This document shows positions 1 through 10,016 of a stretch of 10,016 nucleotides of DNA, piece by piece (position 1 is the stretch's first letter; each line of letters opens with the position of its first letter). The position numbers were made by a program, and so were the translations under genes. The stretch is taken from positions 1 through 10,016 of the forward strand of contig JAGRBY010000234.1 of assembly GCA_020433835.1 (NCBI GenBank), in the 5' to 3' direction. Source of the stretch: Anaerolineae bacterium (GTDB taxonomy: Bacteria > Chloroflexota > Anaerolineae > 4572-78 > J111). The notes below the pieces were generated by a model. That model worked only from the letters and a program-made list of their open reading frames with translations. It made no database searches and was not told the DNA's origin.

Positions 1-382
1 ATTGCATCACCTCGCTTTTTAATGCTTCACGTTGGGCGCGTAGGCTTAACCGGCCTTGCTCTTGCAGCATCTTAAGTCTGTGCGCTCTTTCGATCACTTC
101 CAGATCGGTTACGTCCTGAATCCGGTCAAGTGCGATCAATGCCTTACTCCGGTCGTGTTCAAATTTGGCCCCAGCTATCTCGACATCCAGATCGGCTAAC
201 TTGTCACTCTTGCGGACTTGAACCATATCCATACCAGAATTAAAAATAACCTTGCGGAGATTGTCTAAAGTAGTGACAAGCCGGTCTAAACTTTCGGAAA
301 AGGTAAACAACAAGTGAGACAAAACCCACAACACGAACAGGGTAAGAAATGTCCAAAACAGGATGATTAAAAAGAATGTCAT
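1..382 (-). CDS. membrane-anchored coiled-coil protein, 3' end outside window
   Basis: I do not recognise this protein. Reading leftwards from ATG at 382-380, the frame stays open for 127 codons to the window edge, so the C-terminus is missing. Residues 2-28 are a single strongly hydrophobic helix (it begins MTFFLIILFWTFLTLF), so the protein is probably anchored in the inner membrane by its N-terminus. From about residue 30 it is charged and helical with heptad-like spacing (for example SLDRLVTTLDNLRKV), which suggests a coiled coil. Its ATG overlaps the TGA of the gene before it (ATGA), so the two are probably translationally coupled. That neighbour is also a membrane/coiled-coil protein, and the pair may act together at the membrane. 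The single helix plus coiled coil is visible; any role in DNA transfer or lysis would be a guess. Confidence 0.7.
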   Translation of the reverse strand, partial: MTFFLIILFWTFLTLFVLWVLSHLLFTFSESLDRLVTTLDNLRKVIFNSGMDMVQVRKSDKLADLDVEIAGAKFEHDRSKALIALDRIQDVTDLEVIERAHRLKMLQEQGRLSLRAQREALKSEVMQ

Positions 383-729
383 TTTGTCACCTGCCCGTTT
401 AGGTATCTTTTAACTGTCCGTTCTGTCACATCCAAATTGTCCGCAATGTCACCAACGGACAAACCTTCTGACAACATGGACAATGCTTGCTGTTTTCGTT
501 CCTCCGCTTGTGACTGTCTTTTGGCGGTTAAGTCTGTCATTTTTTGGACATTTCGAGGAAATGTCTCCGAAATGTCATCTTTTAGCGCGTCACGTTCGAC
601 CTTAAGTGTCTCAACTTGTCCGACTATTTTGTCCAGCTCTGTCACCTTGTCTTGCAGTTCTCCATTAACCGTGTCAATTTCTGATACAAGATTGTCAATG
701 GTTTTGATAAGGCCGGCGCGTTTTGTGTC
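377..729. repeat. dense TGTC/GACA tetramer cluster
   Basis: About 22 copies of TGTC or GACA lie in roughly 350 bp, where about 3 are expected by chance. Examples start at 377, 385, 415, 424, 438, 447, 458, 470, 479, 515, 535, 547, 562, 572, 607, 617, 630, 640 and 648. Many come as pairs 8-10 bp apart. They fall in different codon phases (GTG ACA, GGT GAC ATT, TTG TCC), so codon choice alone does not explain them. The function is unknown. Confidence 0.4.
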
Positions 730-1098
730 CTGCTCAACTTTCCATATCCAAGTTTTGAACGCTGCGTAAAGGAAGATCGGCGGCAAGGCAACAACGGCTC
801 TTGTCAGTAGGTTGTCATTTGGTGCGTGTAAAACATTGAAGCCAACTGATAACACGGTACAGGTGATAATCATTGGTTGTAGGGCGCTGTTTTTGTAGCC
901 GTCCAGTTTGGCACTCAACAGCACCAGGGAGAAGATAACAACCGCCGATTCTGTCACGAGCGGCCAAAGGGCTGCTAACCAGCCATAGCCCGAATCGACG
1001 GCCACAGCGTACATACCGGCAAAACTGAGGATAAAAGAGCCTACAGCCAGGAATACTAACATGCTGCCTGTCCAACTTTCGATTCTATTAGCTGTCAT
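379..1098 (-). CDS. DUF2637-like membrane protein with coiled coil and C-terminal HTH
   Basis: This is a 239-residue protein in three parts. Four hydrophobic segments lie at about residues 13-34, 40-61, 76-92 and 102-120. A charged coiled-coil stretch covers about 125-178. A helix-turn-helix of the kind found in resolvases or sigma factors lies at about 205-235 (GLSVGDIADNLDVTERTVKR). The four-helix N-terminus plus a cytoplasmic tail resembles DUF2637 proteins, known mainly from actinobacterial mobile elements and related to the Spd plasmid-spread proteins. I infer a membrane protein that tethers or senses element DNA. The start is ATG at 1098, preceded by AGGGGGC, which can pair with the anti-Shine-Dalgarno. 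It overlaps the upstream 54-residue gene by 11 bp and the next gene by ATGA. The family match comes from topology and style, not from a search. The 3' half of the gene is unusually rich in TGTC/GACA. Confidence 0.72.
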   Translation of the reverse strand: MTANRIESWTGSMLVFLAVGSFILSFAGMYAVAVDSGYGWLAALWPLVTESAVVIFSLVLLSAKLDGYKNSALQPMIITCTVLSVGFNVLHAPNDNLLTRAVVALPPIFLYAAFKTWIWKVEQDTKRAGLIKTIDNLVSEIDTVNGELQDKVTELDKIVGQVETLKVERDALKDDISETFPRNVQKMTDLTAKRQSQAEERKQQALSMLSEGLSVGDIADNLDVTERTVKRYLNGQVTK

Positions 1099-1987: not shown

Positions 1988-2320
1988 ATGACTAACAAGA
2001 TCGGCTCTTACCTTACAGACGAATTAGAACAACGTGGGTGGTCACATTCTGAATTAGCCCGTCGCGCTGGGGTTGCTCAAGTTACCGTTTCTTTAGTGAT
2101 AGCCGGTAAACGTAATCCCGGCTGTGACTTCTGTATTAAGATCGCTCAAGCGCTAGGCGAAAGTCCCGAAAAGCTCTTGAGGCTTGCCGACATCTTACCG
2201 CCCGCGCTGGGTGATAACGCCACGGTTCAAGAAATAATGGATACCCTCAAACAGTTACCAGAACAAGAACAAGAGGAAGTGTTGAAGTATGCAAAATTTC
2301 GTCTCCAACAACAGAAATAA
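1988..2320 (+). CDS. Xre/Cro-type HTH repressor (110 aa)
   Basis: This is a phage-repressor-like DNA-binding protein of 110 residues. An HTH-3 domain fills about residues 5-65, with the HTH at about 19-40 (SHSELARRAGVAQVTVSLV) followed by IAGKRNPGCDFCIKIAQALG, typical of the family. The C-terminal 30 residues are an acidic helix (LPEQEQEEVLKYAKFRLQQQ), likely for dimerisation. There is no LexA-type peptidase domain, so relief of repression would need another signal, such as an antirepressor. It is the only rightward gene of the element and is divergent from the ribbon-helix-helix gene. The start ATG 1988 has GGAG only two bases upstream, an unusually short spacing, so translation may be inefficient. 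It converges on the packaging operon. Confidence 0.88.
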   Translation: MTNKIGSYLTDELEQRGWSHSELARRAGVAQVTVSLVIAGKRNPGCDFCIKIAQALGESPEKLLRLADILPPALGDNATVQEIMDTLKQLPEQEQEEVLKYAKFRLQQQK

Positions 2321-3199: not shown

Positions 3200-3366
3200 T
3201 TTCGGTTCGTGATTGTGGTATCCGTTCTTGTACACGTTTGCCCTTTGCTTGGTGGTTCAATTTGCCCGCCTATATGGTCAACTAATCGAACCGGCGGTTG
3301 TTTGAAATTTATCCCTTCTCGGATGAGCCGCTTAATTGCGCGGCGTTGTATCTCAGTAAATCGCAT
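3196..3366 (-). CDS. small basic hypothetical protein (56 aa)
   Basis: The start is ATG 3366-3364, with AAAAGGAGG directly upstream, one of the best ribosome sites in the window. A longer reading frame back to 3420 lacks such a site. The 56-residue product is strongly basic (it begins MRFTEIQRRAIKRLIREG and ends TRTDTTITNRK). It has one amphipathic helix at about residues 4-18 and then a Pro/Gly-containing tail. No family is recognisable. It overlaps the end of the large terminase by 14 bases and the protease start by ATGA. It sits exactly where a portal gene would be expected in an HK97-like head cluster, but it is far too small to be one. Confidence 0.65.
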   Translation of the reverse strand: MRFTEIQRRAIKRLIREGINFKQPPVRLVDHIGGQIEPPSKGQTCTRTDTTITNRK

Positions 3367-4840
3367 AATGCCTCCTTTTGAATATGCTATGCCGTTCTGG
3401 TTTGTATGTGCCGATGTCAATATCTTCTATTGTGGTTCCGGCGGGTGGTGGGCCGCTGCCTTTTTGCTCCGCCTCACAGACAGCCATTGCCAGCGCTATA
3501 GCCGCGTCAATCTTCTTTGAAGCCGTGTCTTTAATTAACCTTATCCCGCGTGGAGTTTCTTTCGCCTTAGCGTTTAGGACATACTCTCTCAAGTCACTTG
3601 CGCCAGAATAGACAGACAACCGCGCTTGCTTAACCACATCGAATAAGGTGTTACCGGCTTCAGTTAGCCGTGAAGTTGACTGTATAAACTCTGTGACCGT
3701 AATGCCTTTTGTTTGTAATCGCTGCTTGATATGAAGGAATTGAGACGGATCGCCGCATAATGTTGCTATGCCGTAGGATTGCCACAACTCGACAAGATAG
3801 TCCTCAACAGCTTGTAAATCCACCTCTTTACCGCTTACCGGCTTCCACACCCGATATGGGCCTAACTTTAATTCTTTGTCCTCACGATACACTGAGACAA
3901 CAGCGGAGTGATCGCGCTTCACGCCGATGTCACAAGCCACATACAATCTAACCGCCTTGCTTGGCCCTGGTACTCTGTAAGAGGTATCGACAAGTGCGTC
4001 CCATTGTTCGGGTAGAATGAAAGCATCCTCACTTGATGCCCACTCATTTAGATGTAAGCGCCTGTAGGTTCCCGGTCTGAGGGTGTCTTTTTGTTCTCCG
4101 TAATACTCGACGCGCTCCGCCTCAGTACCACGCCAACAACGGCGCTGGGCGTCCTCACCTTGGTGAATGTATGAAAGCTGTTTACCCTTGCGGTATATCG
4201 GCCATTCATCACTAACACGCTGGCCGGATAAGCCACGATCCCAAACACGCTGCAAGAGGTTGCTTTCACCCTCAAACCCCGCGTAACTGTCGATGATACG
4301 TAGGCAATCGATTAATGGAATGGGGGTTAGCTCTTCAAAAAGGCGCTCTCCTTCTTCGTACTTGTAGCCCCATAATTCAGAAAATGAGACAGTAGCAAAG
4401 TTAGCGCCCGCCGCTCCGCTTGCGTCCATCGGTAGGCTAACAATGCGGCTGTCTGTGGGTGTAAATGTGATTGTGTCCTTCGTAATCTTGGTGTATCGCT
4501 TAAGTACCGGGTGGCGCTTAACCATTGCCGATATTTGATTAAATTGCAGCTCTTCAGCCTGTGATTGATCATTGCCGACTACAAAATGAACGCTTGGAAT
4601 AGTGAGCCAACGGTAAGCCACCAGGATACTGTTTAGCGTGGTTTTACCGGCTTTTTTGACTGTTGACAGCATCAGCGTGCTAATATGCCCACGCTGGGCA
4701 ATACACGCGCCCACTGTGGCCTTTTGCCAATCGCTAAATACAACCGGCTGTCCATCCTCTAAAATCCATCCATAATCATTCTCAGCCCATCCTATCGGCC
4801 CTAATCGCTGCCATTCGCTAATGAGTGTTAGTATCGACAT
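3353..4840 (-). CDS. terL: phage terminase large subunit (ATPase-nuclease)
   Basis: This is the motor that cuts and pumps DNA into proheads, 495 residues and apparently full length. The ATPase half has a Walker A (STVKKAGKTTL, about 59-69). Its Walker B-like strand and catalytic Glu lie at 149-158 (VSFSELWGY, E155), where the usual Asp before Glu is Ser154. The nuclease half is RNase H-like with three Asp-containing motifs: YVACDIGVKRDH (D304), LCGDPSQF (D364) and KKIDAAIALAMA (D445). All three acidic residues are kept, so nuclease activity is plausible. The start ATG 4840 has GAGG eight bases upstream and overlaps the small-subunit gene by 23 bases. Normally it would dock on a portal protein, which is not encoded here. 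Family assignment is firm. Confidence 0.93.
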   Translation of the reverse strand: MSILTLISEWQRLGPIGWAENDYGWILEDGQPVVFSDWQKATVGACIAQRGHISTLMLSTVKKAGKTTLNSILVAYRWLTIPSVHFVVGNDQSQAEELQFNQISAMVKRHPVLKRYTKITKDTITFTPTDSRIVSLPMDASGAAGANFATVSFSELWGYKYEEGERLFEELTPIPLIDCLRIIDSYAGFEGESNLLQRVWDRGLSGQRVSDEWPIYRKGKQLSYIHQGEDAQRRCWRGTEAERVEYYGEQKDTLRPGTYRRLHLNEWASSEDAFILPEQWDALVDTSYRVPGPSKAVRLYVACDIGVKRDHSAVVSVYREDKELKLGPYRVWKPVSGKEVDLQAVEDYLVELWQSYGIATLCGDPSQFLHIKQRLQTKGITVTEFIQSTSRLTEAGNTLFDVVKQARLSVYSGASDLREYVLNAKAKETPRGIRLIKDTASKKIDAAIALAMAVCEAEQKGSGPPPAGTTIEDIDIGTYKPERHSIFKRRHYAIY

Positions 4841-5616: not shown

Positions 5617-7491
5617 TTAGACGGTATGGTTAATTTGATAGAATTTTGCAGCGCCAGACTTATTCATTGTTACAGCGTGTTCGTTCTCTAGCTCTCTTAG
5701 CGCCGAAATGATATTGTTCCGGCCTACACCGTCGATACTGTTAACAATATCGGTTTGGTTCATCGGCTCACCATTCCGGCCTAGTGTGTCGAGTATTACC
5801 GGCTTGGCTTTTTCAACCGCTGTTTGTTCCTCATTCAGTTCAACCGTGCTGGCCTCTAACCACTGGACATAGGCCGATTGGCTGTAATGCTCCGCTTCAA
5901 GTTCAAAATAGAGTTTAGGGAAGTACTCAGCATCCTTTTGCTTGTAGCACTCAATCTCGCCTTTGCCATCGGCGTTCATCCTAACTTGGATAATCGTATC
6001 CATTGCCCCATGCAATGCCGACGATCCCCGGTAACTATTCCCGGCTTTGGTGCTGTGGTGAACAAGTAGCACGGTTGCTCCTAGCCCCTCAACTATCTGT
6101 TTAGCGGCTGCGAGGATTAAACCGGCGTCTTTGGCGTGGTTCTCATCGGCTCCCCTGGTGGCTGCGTGAAGCGTGTCGATAACTACCAAATCGGGCGACT
6201 CGCCTTGCTCCGCCAACTCGACAACAAAGGTACTGACAAATTCAGCCGAATTATTATCGAACAACTGAGGTACATTACAGTAAACCTGTAGGGCTAAACT
6301 ATCGGGATTAACCTTGTGCCGGTTAATGGCTGCCATAAAGCGGTTCCTAAGGCCGCTTACACCTTCACCCGCGCAATAAGCCACGCGTAGCGGTCGTGTA
6401 ACCTCAAACTTACCGGCGTATGGCATCCCGGCGGCTCCGCTGACAATTAGATCAATAGCTGCGAACGTTTTACCCTTGCCGCTTTCACCAAAAATCATTA
6501 CCAAGTCACCAGCGCCGATAAAATCACCCCATAGCCATTGTTTAGACGGTAGGTTAAACAGTTCGGTTAAACTAAGCGGTTTGAACACACGTTCCGGCGG
6601 TTCTACCTCAAGATAGGGGGCGTTATCCACGCGATTTTGTAGAGCCTGGGCTATTTGTCCATCCTGCAAGCCTGCAAGCCTTTTTCGCTCTATCCAGTCG
6701 CTAACATCCTCTTTATCAGCATTACTCCAACCACCTAACGCGGGCGTGATGACCTTCACACGACAACCAGCCGCCAACAGTTCCGGCGCGTCTTTTTCCG
6801 TCCGATCCTTGCCTGCCTGGTCGTTATCCTCAAGAATGATAACTTCCCGCCCGCTTAGGTCGTCTATGAATTTGCCGATACTATCACTTGTGCTTGGTTT
6901 GGTAGTGGCGATAAAACCCAATTTCGTGAGGTTATCAGCGTCTTTTTCGCCCTCGCAGAAGTAGATAGGAATATCCGGCCCGCTCTCAACAATTGCTGAA
7001 AGGTTGTATAGCGGTTCCTCTAGCTTTCCGGTCCCCTTCTCCCATCCGTTGCCGTTGCGGTGCTGCCAACGAAATGTTTTATCTACAATGGCCCCGGTGC
7101 TATCCAAAACGCGATATTTTATCTTTTTGAGTTCGTCTGTGTAGAGGTATTCAGCAATAGGGGCGCTCCAGTCTATTTGTCTGTCCTTTGGTTTTTTACC
7201 GTTACCGTTCGGAGTGACTTCTATTGCAGTAGGATCGAGCCGTTTCATTGCCTCTTCAAAGGTAATATCCTCAACCCACTGCATAAATTCGATCACATCT
7301 TCGTAGCTCGTATGGCACTTTCTACACTGGAACGCTTCTTCGGAAACTGTAAAACGATCTTTCCCGCCACATTTGGGACAAGGCCCGCGTTTCCACTTTG
7401 TATCCTTATCCGTAAGTGTAGTGTACTTAGCGGCTACGTCTCTAAGGTCGTATTTTTGCTTAACCTGGTGCGTGTGGTATTGCTCGCTCAC
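5617..7491 (-). CDS. primase-helicase: zinc finger, TOPRIM and RecA/RepA-type ATPase, 624 aa
   Basis: This is the replication protein of the element. A CHC2-like zinc ribbon has Cys at 38, 41, 56 and 59 (GPCPKCGGKDRF, FQCRKCHTSYED). A linker with WSAP...KTFRW precedes the TOPRIM domain (about 173-270: IPIYFCEGEKDAD with E180; ILEDNDQAGKD with D222 and D224). A RecA/RepA-like ATPase follows (about 315-505: Walker A GESGKGKT 335-342, Walker B LVVIDT with D439, VLLVHHS 474-480, SYRGSSAL 487-493). A C-terminal winged helix (about 560-622) may bind origin DNA. This is a primase-plus-hexameric-helicase plan like T7 gp4 and plasmid or phage replicases. GTG at 7491 overlaps the preceding TGA as GTGA. 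It should act at the adjacent non-coding origin. The domains are clear; priming activity is inferred. Confidence 0.9.
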   Translation of the reverse strand: MSEQYHTHQVKQKYDLRDVAAKYTTLTDKDTKWKRGPCPKCGGKDRFTVSEEAFQCRKCHTSYEDVIEFMQWVEDITFEEAMKRLDPTAIEVTPNGNGKKPKDRQIDWSAPIAEYLYTDELKKIKYRVLDSTGAIVDKTFRWQHRNGNGWEKGTGKLEEPLYNLSAIVESGPDIPIYFCEGEKDADNLTKLGFIATTKPSTSDSIGKFIDDLSGREVIILEDNDQAGKDRTEKDAPELLAAGCRVKVITPALGGWSNADKEDVSDWIERKRLAGLQDGQIAQALQNRVDNAPYLEVEPPERVFKPLSLTELFNLPSKQWLWGDFIGAGDLVMIFGESGKGKTFAAIDLIVSGAAGMPYAGKFEVTRPLRVAYCAGEGVSGLRNRFMAAINRHKVNPDSLALQVYCNVPQLFDNNSAEFVSTFVVELAEQGESPDLVVIDTLHAATRGADENHAKDAGLILAAAKQIVEGLGATVLLVHHSTKAGNSYRGSSALHGAMDTIIQVRMNADGKGEIECYKQKDAEYFPKLYFELEAEHYSQSAYVQWLEASTVELNEEQTAVEKAKPVILDTLGRNGEPMNQTDIVNSIDGVGRNNIISALRELENEHAVTMNKSGAAKFYQINHTV

Positions 7492-8511: not shown

Positions 8512-9144
8512 TCATTTAAAGAGGATACCTAATTCTTTCCGGTCATTATCAATTGTGTCTAACGATACTCCGAACTGTTCTGCTAAGTGCATAGGTTCGA
8601 TTTTGCCGTCCAGCAAGTCTTGACGTAGTTTCCATATCTTCTTCCGGCGTTTTCTCACATCGGGTCGTTTTCCAAAATTTGGTTCTTTTTCGACATTGTT
8701 GATATTTGCCTGCTCCGCCCCATTGCCCGTGTTTTGCTCTAGTTGTCCCCCCCTGGGTTTTGTATATGGATCATAAAGTCCCAAGCTCTCTAAAAAATAT
8801 GGGTCTTCGCAAAACCTCAACTCGATTCCAAAGGTTTCGTGCAACTCTTTGATTATCATAAAAATCAATTTGTATACTTTTGGCGATTCCCACATCAAGG
8901 TAACAAAAGCCTTGCTGCCGCCGCTAATCTCTGCACTCAATGCCGTGTCACCATGTATCGGCGGGTTTTCGCCAAGGCTGTACGCTTTCCCCACAAACAC
9001 GGCGCTCAGACTCCACGGTTCATTCTCCCTATCGGGACGAGGCTGCCCAATCCCATACGACCAGCCAGTATCACTAATCCAATGTGAGGCACAAGTAATA
9101 AAATCCTCTCGTGTGCCGTGAACGTACATTTGTATTTGTCCCAT
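8512..9144 (-). CDS. HTH regulatory protein with unknown N-terminal domain (210 aa)
   Basis: Residues 1-125 form a globular domain I do not recognise (it begins MGQIQMYVHGTREDF and includes AFVTLMWESPKVYKLIFMI and FGIELRFCEDPYF). About 130-160 is a polar, Asn/Gln-rich linker, and 162-175 is very basic (DVRKRRKKIWKL). The last 40 residues hold a DeoR/sigma-like HTH (MHLAEQFGVSLDTIDNDRKE). I infer a DNA-binding regulator of the replication operon, whose N-terminus may sense a ligand or partner. ATG 9144 has AGGAG ten bases upstream, but that site lies inside the 3' arm of a terminator-like hairpin, so expression is probably conditional. A second ATG (residue 6) with GGGA upstream is an alternative start. 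The gene ends directly at three 11-bp repeats that could be its own target. Confidence 0.75.
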   Translation of the reverse strand: MGQIQMYVHGTREDFITCASHWISDTGWSYGIGQPRPDRENEPWSLSAVFVGKAYSLGENPPIHGDTALSAEISGGSKAFVTLMWESPKVYKLIFMIIKELHETFGIELRFCEDPYFLESLGLYDPYTKPRGGQLEQNTGNGAEQANINNVEKEPNFGKRPDVRKRRKKIWKLRQDLLDGKIEPMHLAEQFGVSLDTIDNDRKELGILFK

Positions 9145-9175
9145 AAAAAAACCGCTCCTATTTGCCTAGAGCGGT
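9145..9175 (-). terminator. attenuator-like terminator sequestering the ribosome site
   Basis: On the minus strand ACCGCTC (9175-9169) pairs with GAGCGGT (9157-9151), with one more T-G pair and a 9-base loop. Seven Ts (9151-9145) run straight into ATG 9144. AGGAG (9159-9155), the ribosome site for the HTH gene, lies partly in the 3' arm. The hairpin could therefore block both transcription and translation. Confidence 0.65.
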
Positions 9176-9260
9176 AGGGTAGCGCATAATATGGCTGTCA
9201 ACCTACCGCCGCTATGGGGTTGACCATTGCCTCAGATGTGACAGCATCGTGAGGCTTTCC
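9145..9260 (-). promoter_or_regulatory. structured 5' leader with competing hairpins (candidate cis-regulator)
   Basis: Read leftwards, the leader has three elements. Hairpin 1 pairs GCCTCA with TGAGGC, plus an inner GATG/CATC stem (9229-9255). Hairpin 2 pairs GTCAACC (9197-9203) with GGTTGAC (9218-9224). GCGGTAGG (9209-9202) can pair with CCTACCGC (9179-9172), the same bases that form the 5' arm of the terminator. Pairing with the upstream segment would disrupt the terminator, a classic anti-terminator layout. I could not match it to a known riboswitch class. Confidence 0.55.
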
Positions 9261-9263
9261 CTT

Positions 9264-9272
9264 ATTATAGCA
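9264..9272 (-). promoter_or_regulatory. extended -10 promoter of the HTH gene
   Basis: TGCTATAAT on the minus strand is a perfect TATAAT with the TGn extension. The -35 region is poor (AAGCAT at the 17-base spacing), which extended -10 promoters tolerate. Transcription would begin near 9257, giving a leader of about 113 bases. Confidence 0.6.
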
Positions 9273-9313
9273 CGTCTGTGCTGAAAATGCTTACAGTACA
9301 AAGGTTTTTATAA

Positions 9314-10016
9314 ATGCAAAAGGAAAAACCGTTCTTAGTTGAAGACAACCATTGGTGGTTCAGCAGCCGTACGCGTGCGCTGAATACCGTGATACAGTCT
9401 CTTATTCCTCAAAAACCTGCCCTGAAGCTGCTCGATGTGGGCTGCGGAGCGGGTAATATGATTCATCATCTCAGCAAATACGGCCAGGTAAAGGGGTTGG
9501 AGATTGATCCGCGCCCGGTAGCCATGGCCCGCCAGCGGGGCTATGACGTTGATTTATTTGATGTGACCAAGCAGATGCCGTTTGATGAAGCTACCTTTGA
9601 CGTGATTACCGCGCTTGATGTCATCGAGCATAACGAGGATGACATGGCTATTCTGGCCGACAGTTATCGGGTGCTGAAGCCGGGCGGGCATATGGTTATT
9701 ACGGTGCCGGCCTTTATGTTTCTGTGGACCCATAATGATGATATTAATGCCCACGTCCGCCGCTATACAGCTGATGAGCTAACGGCCAAGCTGTCTAAGA
9801 CCGGCTTTAAGGTACGGCGGGTGACCTACAATAACTTCTTTGTCTTTCCGCTGGCGGCAACACTGCTGATGCTGCGGCGTTCGACCGGAGCCAAGACGGA
9901 GTTGGCCTCGCACCACATGGATGAAGACGAATACCAGGTCGAAATGGAACCGGCCTCGCCGCCGGTTAACGCCGCGCTGACGATGGTCGGTAAGGTTGAG
10001 GCGGGTTTAATTCGAC
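9314..10016 (+). CDS. SAM-dependent class I methyltransferase, 3' end outside window
   Basis: The frame is open for 234 codons to the window end. The N-terminus has the EDNHWWFSSR signature (about 10-19) of methyltransferases that often sit in cell-envelope sugar or lipid gene clusters. The SAM-binding motif I is LLDVGCGAGNM (39-49), the acidic end of strand 2 is GLEIDPR (61-67), and later motifs are ALDVIEH (100-106) and RVLKPGG (119-125). The substrate cannot be told. A hydrophobic patch at about 175-187 (FFVFPLAATLLML) may touch the membrane. ATG 9314 has AAAGG nine bases upstream. It is more GC-rich than the genes to its left and runs the opposite way, so it is probably a host gene flanking the element. 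Family is sure; host status is inferred. Confidence 0.88.
   Translation, partial: MQKEKPFLVEDNHWWFSSRTRALNTVIQSLIPQKPALKLLDVGCGAGNMIHHLSKYGQVKGLEIDPRPVAMARQRGYDVDLFDVTKQMPFDEATFDVITALDVIEHNEDDMAILADSYRVLKPGGHMVITVPAFMFLWTHNDDINAHVRRYTADELTAKLSKTGFKVRRVTYNNFFVFPLAATLLMLRRSTGAKTELASHHMDEDEYQVEMEPASPPVNAALTMVGKVEAGLIR

Follow-up and report, generated by a model that had tools for sequence, protein, structure and literature searches.

Our data indicate that the leader RNA on the minus strand of the window (the whole stretch of DNA that was analysed, 10,016 bases and apparently a whole contig) belongs to a family of leaders and, judging from conserved sequence and pairing, is very probably a countertranscript-driven transcription attenuator, with an antisense RNA as its likely controller. 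Conserved folds, a promoter and a terminator on each strand, and a strand common to two exclusive pairings are visible at the sequence level, and we infer from them that both RNAs are made, that binding of the antisense RNA causes termination and that the controlled operon drives replication. The initial annotation, which considered one strand, had seen in this leader an attenuator and suspected an unknown riboswitch. The attenuator part holds, as the exclusive pairings are kept in the family, whereas the riboswitch part is improbable, because the conserved loop reads as a promoter of the opposite strand.

Table 1. Genes and leader features of the window, with the basis of each assignment.
Feature	Positions	Strand	Basis or remark
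DUF2637 protein	379-1098	(-)	
HTH_3 protein	1988-2320	(+)	
Terminase large subunit	3353-4840	(-)	
Primase/AAA protein	5617-7491	(-)	
Controlled first gene	8512..9144	(-)	210 aa, ORFan; HTH-like C-terminal segment, by eye
Terminator U-run, seven U	9145..9151	(-)	abuts ATG 9144-9142
Terminator hairpin	9151..9175	(-)	arms ACCGCTC 9175-9169 / GAGCGGT 9157-9151
Putative antisense promoter, -35 TTGCCT	9162..9167	(+)	simple scan; same place across family
P3 3' strand CCTACCGC	9171..9178	(-)	common to terminator 5' arm
Putative antisense promoter, -10 CATAAT	9185..9190	(+)	spacer 17, without TG extension
H2 3' strand GGTTGAC	9197..9203	(-)	folding and family pairing
Predicted antisense RNA, about 68 nt	9197..9264	(+)	prediction; ends in H1 complement and TTTCCCTT
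P3 5' strand (pre-emptor/anti-terminator) GCGGTAGG	9202..9209	(-)	folding and family tests
H2 5' strand GTCAACC	9218..9224	(-)	folding and family pairing
H1 GCCTCA-C-GATG/CATC-TGAGGC	9229..9255	(-)	folding and family covariation
Sense promoter, extended -10 TGcTATAAT	9264..9272	(-)	sequence; predicted start near 9257
Methyltransferase gene	from 9314		right edge of window; opposite orientation to first gene

The leader lies between the first gene and a methyltransferase gene, the latter with 56-80% identity over the compared part to the best 20 relatives fetched from the class of genome G001. The 210-aa product of the first gene, a putative HTH regulator of replication according to the initial annotation, has no Pfam match, its sole match among 5.8 billion proteins is itself, and no relatives were found in viral contigs, in plasmids or phages by distant blastn, or among the 396 genomes searched from the class of G001 (a search without positive control); a terminase query gave no match in viral contigs either. 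A structure model of this protein, made without relatives (mean pLDDT 46.9), is too poor for use.

All details that the initial annotation had described, namely an extended -10 followed by a leader with three inverted repeats and a ribosome site inside the terminator, were found in the sequence of the minus strand. H1 consists of 6 bp, a bulged C at 9249, 4 bp and a 6-nt loop, and the 3' arm of the terminator overlaps AGGAG at 9159-9155. Folding both alternatives confirmed that anti-terminator and terminator are mutually exclusive, with a minimum free energy of -40.3 kcal/mol for the terminator form and -37.1 kcal/mol with an imposed anti-terminator. When the leader is folded step by step, the anti-terminator is present at lengths 92-108, ahead of the terminator, which prevails from 112 nt. 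Of 200 shuffles, 195 fold less well than the leader and 5 equally well (z -2.27), so that, judged on the window alone, a chance fold is excluded only moderately. A simple consensus terminator scan called nothing here; its loop limit is 8, and the loop of the window terminator is longer. The question was decided by conservation across the family, which at the level of sequence confirms the window fold as real.

The productive route to relatives was the primase, followed by comparison of upstream sequences by eye. The closest primase relative with a name (P0004) came from an Anaerolineae MAG, and the primase led to an element of similar gene layout (L002, in the Anaerolineales MAG G001) and also to the genomes G036 and G224. 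L002, the closest syntenic element (primase 48%), is without the leader RNA (10 bits, no match up to E=1), which weighs against the attenuator reading; look-alike leaders precede the layout-equivalent first genes of the G036 and G224 elements. These early leaders are alike at a glance: common to them are an H1 with the bulged C and four pairs in its tip, GGCATGGTCAACC or a close variant of it, and then a strand able to pair downstream. An exact leader pattern found no match in genome contigs, and a second pattern none in viral contigs. The covariance search that the initial annotation had proposed did reveal a family. A model built from three leaders (R1) gave full-length matches in further genomes of the same class, with 62 at E up to 0.1 among 396 genomes of the class of G001, and a second model from 31 leaders (R2) gave 36 at E up to 0.01 in 201 genomes of the phylum, 12 of these with at least 40 bits. 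Altogether, the family comprises 48 distinct sequences of at least 40 bits, window included, from genomes of the class and phylum of G001.

The trust line of 40 bits was drawn after a control with 46 genomes, where the best match reached 34.8 bits and six of the genomes had E up to 0.01, so that E-values are to be taken as rough. These control genomes came via primase loci and are, by their titles, one Chloroflexi MAG, one "bacterium" and otherwise members of other phyla; in the four best control matches the remainder of the motif is absent by eye. Likewise, 45 loci from viral contigs contained a single match up to E 0.1, with 16.1 bits. Below the line fall 13 of 61 rows, among them the second copies (B) in L264, L266 and L268 and the first copy (A) in L286, which are discussed below. 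Two alignments were used: A4 with 62 rows, the first 51 of which entered the permutation test (including two poor ones of 27.9 and 28.9 bits), and A5 with 65 rows, 61 of them distinct, with L228, L234 and L235 not among the sources. A third match in L266 (11915-12003, 28.9 bits) was excluded as background. Outside Chloroflexota, L292 and L293 (genomes G587 and G593) carry a bulged-C, H1-like hairpin just before a start codon (30-35 bits), with the remainder of the leader motif absent.

Conserved pairing, the lack of which in homologous elements would have spoken against the initial annotation, is present in the family. In the alignment of 61 distinct sequences, the share of paired cells is 82.0% compared to 37-41% for slid controls; this alignment follows the model in H1 and H2 and not in P3. 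H1 is paired in 96.9% of cells, with a compensatory change at 10/10 pairs, H2 in 80.3% and P3, whose register varies among sequences, in 59.2%; shuffles and slid partners stay below all three. P3 is absent from the pairs of every model, although its strands do lie inside modelled columns. Its duplex energy is -14.3 kcal/mol with the own partner versus -11.5 kcal/mol with permuted ones, and none of 10,000 permutations of the 51 rows equalled this value. Since the strands themselves are fairly conserved, the own partner ranks first in only 12 of the 51 rows, and P3 is weak (own partner ranking 36-50) in L194, L210, L224, L228, L231, L235 and the second L193 match; both points weigh against the attenuator reading.

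A terminator is present in 41/61 members, where 7.5 are expected from shuffles, and the count was identical with a hand-made list of 61 places and with A5. For 32 of these 41, the start of the 5' arm and the match end are 8-12 nt apart, which puts this start inside the P3 3' strand; therefore, the two exclusive pairings are a trait of the family. In the other 20 of 61 members the criterion used detects no terminator, which weighs against the attenuator reading. This group includes L188, L189, L192, L194 and L210, in which, by eye, UAGCACAUC can pair with GAUGUGC at the ribosome site (in L192 partly). In 35/61 members, the start of an ORF that is complete and has at least 100 aa is found within 62 nt, and upstream of H1 a sense-promoter score of at least 10 is reached in 27/61, compared to 0.9% of random places.

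The best conserved unpaired bases, taken from the column frequencies of the family, are AnnnUAnCACA. Read backwards, this is TGnTAnnnT, the extended -10 of a putative promoter on the opposite strand, which is preceded on that strand, at a spacing of 16-18 bp, by a -35-like box (TTGaCa) largely outside the modelled columns. Among the 61 distinct members, A2 and T6 of the antisense -10 are found in 61, T1 in 55 and the TG in 50, a place that was chosen after its conservation had been noticed. At least 8/12 promoter matches occur in 43/61 members, whereas 200 shuffles gave a mean of 0.2 and a maximum of 2. The picture is the same for members of at least 40 bits (A2 and T6 in 48/48, TG in 42, at least 8/12 matches in 37) and for the 17 of them outside the training set of R2 (17/17, 16 and 10, respectively). 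The -35 box scores 3.81 matches versus 2.30 in shuffles for members of at least 40 bits (four of the six window -35 bases lie outside modelled columns) and 3.53 versus 2.22 for the 17 non-training members. In the window, the site at 9162-9190 has 9/12 matches and is without TG, which weighs against the antisense reading. It is the sole promoter-like site that the simple scan finds in 8900-9500, but shuffles average 1.0; therefore, the promoter claim rests on the family and not on the window.

The predicted antisense RNA has a median length of 64 across the family. Because an A-rich tract precedes H1, H1 on the opposite strand ends in a U-tract, and we take H1 to be the probable terminator hairpin of the antisense RNA on the plus strand. 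In line with this, a T-tract (at least 4 T in 8 nt, with four of the eight positions being model columns) is found in 56/61 members versus 10% at random, and the antisense H1 hairpin has a mean energy of -16.6 kcal/mol in the family. For the window, the predicted antisense RNA folds with -26.7 kcal/mol (z -4.07, equalled by 0/200 shuffles), compared to the z of -2.27 of the sense leader, whereas its broken U-tract, TTTCCCTT, weighs against the antisense reading. An independent sign comes from the G-U pairs, which are costly in stems that fold in both transcripts because G-U becomes A-C on the other strand. They make up 5/587 paired cells (0.9%) in H1 and 3/240 (1.3%) in H2, but 66/575 (11.5%) in P3 and 78/502 (15.5%) in the terminators of the same leaders, the pairs of the latter two having been picked by energy folding. 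The difference is pronounced (H1 vs terminator p=6e-22; H1 vs P3 p=7e-16), with cells that are not independent across related sequences. The scarcity of G-U in H1 and H2 is thus as expected if both must fold in two transcripts.

These features have to be weighed against other ways of reading the leader. Our working view, until the column frequencies exposed the conserved loop as a reversed extended -10, was a metabolite- or protein-sensing riboswitch, in which H2 and P3 form the H-type pseudoknot of an aptamer and the loop AnnnUAnCACA binds the ligand. The conserved unpaired bases, H2 crossing P3, the terminator platform and an apparent translational platform in the five members with UAGCACAUC would all fit. 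However, with the same bases accompanied by a -35-like box at 16-18 bp, with a near absence of G-U in H1 and H2 that is unexpected for an aptamer on one strand, and with no common function of the first genes visible in Pfam, we consider this improbable. Similarly improbable is that face-to-face promoters act by transcription interference alone, with hairpins and an antisense transcript that has no pairing role. The two promoters are indeed opposed across some 70 bp, but interference alone would need neither the exclusion between pre-emptor and terminator, which is maintained by covariation, nor the strong variation of the H1 tip (57 distinct tips in 61 rows).

Ribosome-controlled attenuation via a leader peptide (candidates in the window are MLSHLRQWSTP and MVNPIAAVG) drew on short frames that begin with ATG in the leader of the window, one of which ends beside the pre-emptor strand, and on the shared position of an ATG among the first three leaders. 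This reading was dropped and is very unlikely, as the ATG after H1 is lost in several members (e.g. GGGCTGCGACC, GGGGCCACGGTC, GGGGCATCGGCC), the peptides are not conserved and no convincing ribosome site was seen by eye. Even less credible is a processive anti-termination RNA of the put/EAR kind acting on the polymerase: the leader does head operons of mobile elements, some of which contain two copies, but its terminator lies within the motif and has a strand in common with P3, and the antisense promoter has no role in that model as it is generally known. The best Rfam match to the leader, isrK (RF01394), also has a terminator before an ORF; it was rejected on viewing the alignment as a chance match (15.2 bits, E 0.3, not approaching the gathering score of 50), since other strands are paired.

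For the countertranscript-driven attenuator, the following mechanism can be proposed. The sense promoter would start a leader of about 113 nt, and as long as the polymerase has not left this leader, 9209-9202 (the pre-emptor strand) would pair with 9178-9171, so that P3 blocks the terminator and the first gene is made. The opposite-strand promoter inside the leader (-35 at 9162, -10 at 9185) would give rise to an antisense RNA, about 65 nt long, which spans the pre-emptor strand, H2 and H1 and is terminated by H1 and the U-tract. Given enough of this RNA, the pre-emptor strand would be captured and P3 would fail; the terminator would then form before the start codon, hiding the ribosome site as well, and the gene would be off. 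More copies of the element would give more antisense RNA, limiting the first operon by dosage, as in plasmids. With respect to replication, a Pfam scan of 32 first-gene proteins gave 18 families with no replication initiator among them; this and the diversity of the controlled genes weigh against the mechanism. A primase/AAA protein is encoded downstream in several elements. The first-gene products are diverse: of the 32 scanned, three have HTH_23, a few have other HTH models and some have unrelated domains, and the domains seen once include an MmeI-type methylase, an SDH-type protease, an HNH endonuclease and sigma-70 region 4. The leaders L224, L230 and L242 (about 41-44 bits) precede other kinds of genes.

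Antisense control of leaders is textbook plasmid biology, and the closest likeness is to the repC leader of pT181. pT181 uses an 87-nt counter-transcribed RNAI complementary to the leader, stem-loop IV lies directly before repC and is predicted to hold the ribosome site, and a pre-emptor pairs with the 5' arm of stem-loop IV when the antisense RNA is absent (PMC5703833). Our leader resembles it in the predicted counter-transcribed RNA of similar length and complementary to the leader, in the terminator right before the start codon that overlaps the ribosome site, and in the pre-emptor strand that pairs with the 5' arm. At the sequence level, an opposite-strand promoter, an antisense terminator, a terminator before the start codon and pre-emptor pairing are thus all found, the last with the 5' arm of the terminator and weak in some members. 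In contrast to the staphylococcal plasmid pT181, the family occurs in Chloroflexota with several members in integrative elements, the first gene is not recognisable as Rep, and some elements have a second copy near the attachment site. For the repR genes of pIP501, pAMbeta1 and pSM19035, antisense RNAIII causes premature termination in the replication-gene leader (PMC4981023), comparable to the predicted antisense RNA here, which would end leader transcription early; the pIP501 leader of 329 bp and RNAIII of 136 nt compare with about 113 and 65 nt in our case (PMC4981023). The HTH_3 gene of the window, repressor-like and oriented opposite to the rest of the element, has a 51% homolog in L002, which is of similar layout; by analogy with pIP501, its product may act alongside the antisense RNA in the way of CopR. 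Finally, the pSK41 RNAI favours a hairpin that hides the ribosome site, resulting in translational control of Rep (PMC5703833). L188, L189, L192, L194 and L210 may be of this type, given their UAGCACAUC/GAUGUGC pairing by eye, a likeness that is limited by the weak P3 in L194 and L210.

The expectation that the leader fits no known riboswitch class was borne out, as Rfam at gathering scores gave nothing in the window and only three tRNAs in 20 family loci. The Rfam ctRNA families, of which ctRNA_pT181 is an example, are not among the four window matches at E 10. In the open-access literature, we found no such leader family from Chloroflexota and no antisense attenuator that precedes an integrase. 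The mechanism is known; what appears to be new is the family, together with its hosts, its occurrence in integrative elements and the second copy. This would link copy control of the plasmid type with excision and replication of integrated chromosomal elements, in a phylum with few genetic tools. Besides, the scarcity of G-U in stems of two transcripts offers a simple check for hidden antisense RNAs among riboswitch orphans.

A contrast between copies in one genome is expected of antisense RNAs that must not cross-react. In G092, the two copies (L191, L217) are identical at 4/15 tip positions of H1 and at 69/74 positions elsewhere, as this expectation would have it. Among the seven genomes with several copies, only G092 clearly shows this contrast; the tips in G061 are 15/15 and those in G250 14/15 identical, which weighs against it, as incompatibility would ask for a difference.

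Several members lie in integrative elements. Upstream of copy A in L264, L265, L267 and L270, about 7-133 nt separate the end of a phage integrase (Pfam) from the match, and in L268 an integrase of the same cluster lies some 490 nt upstream. L263 and L184 have a serine recombinase at the other end with no such upstream integrase seen, and both types occur in L270, where the serine recombinase was assigned by cluster alone. In L264, L266 and L268, a second, weaker match (copy B, 34-36 bits) follows on the same strand about 5-6 kb further on. For hits with one copy, the annotated upstream region contained a tyrosine-integrase element in four of seven cases (L282, L283, L284, L286; Pfam confirmation of the integrase was done on two of the four), with L286 also holding a copy A of 35.2 bits. 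No such element was found in the annotated upstream region of L285, L289 and L290, and the upstream sequence of L287 and L288 is too short to judge.

Direct repeats of at least 40 bp were detected in five of seven elements tried (null maximum 12-15), namely in the tyrosine-integrase elements of L282, L283, L284, L286 and L264 of some 5-9 kb, with 71-250 bp from the left repeat to int and 144-376 bp from copy B to the right one. In L282, L283 and L284, both repeats are tRNA-Arg genes. The repeat in L266 is only 10 bp (null maximum 14), and the test of L268 used 92 bases of left-hand sequence. From the repeat positions it follows that copy B would lie about 290-450 bp before int on a circle, and we predict that copy B drives int on the excised circle. 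The copies B of L283 (L239) and L286 (L229) have no terminator by the criterion used. It is conceivable, though we hold it as a tentative view with the odds slightly against it, that the antisense-attenuator family governs chromosomal integrative elements of Chloroflexota at two points: copy A would shut the first (replication) operon, and copy B, which lies beside attR at the far end, would lead the integrase gene only on the excised circle, so that antisense dosage would sense the copy number of the circle and couple replication with re-integration. In this context, copy B at the attachment site provides a concrete proposal for how the integrase could be restricted to the circular form. Between copy B and the direct repeat, we also observed repeated TTGACAGCAC/TTGACAACAC-like units (L268:8485-8575, L238, L239, L241), which are perhaps arm sites of the integrase.
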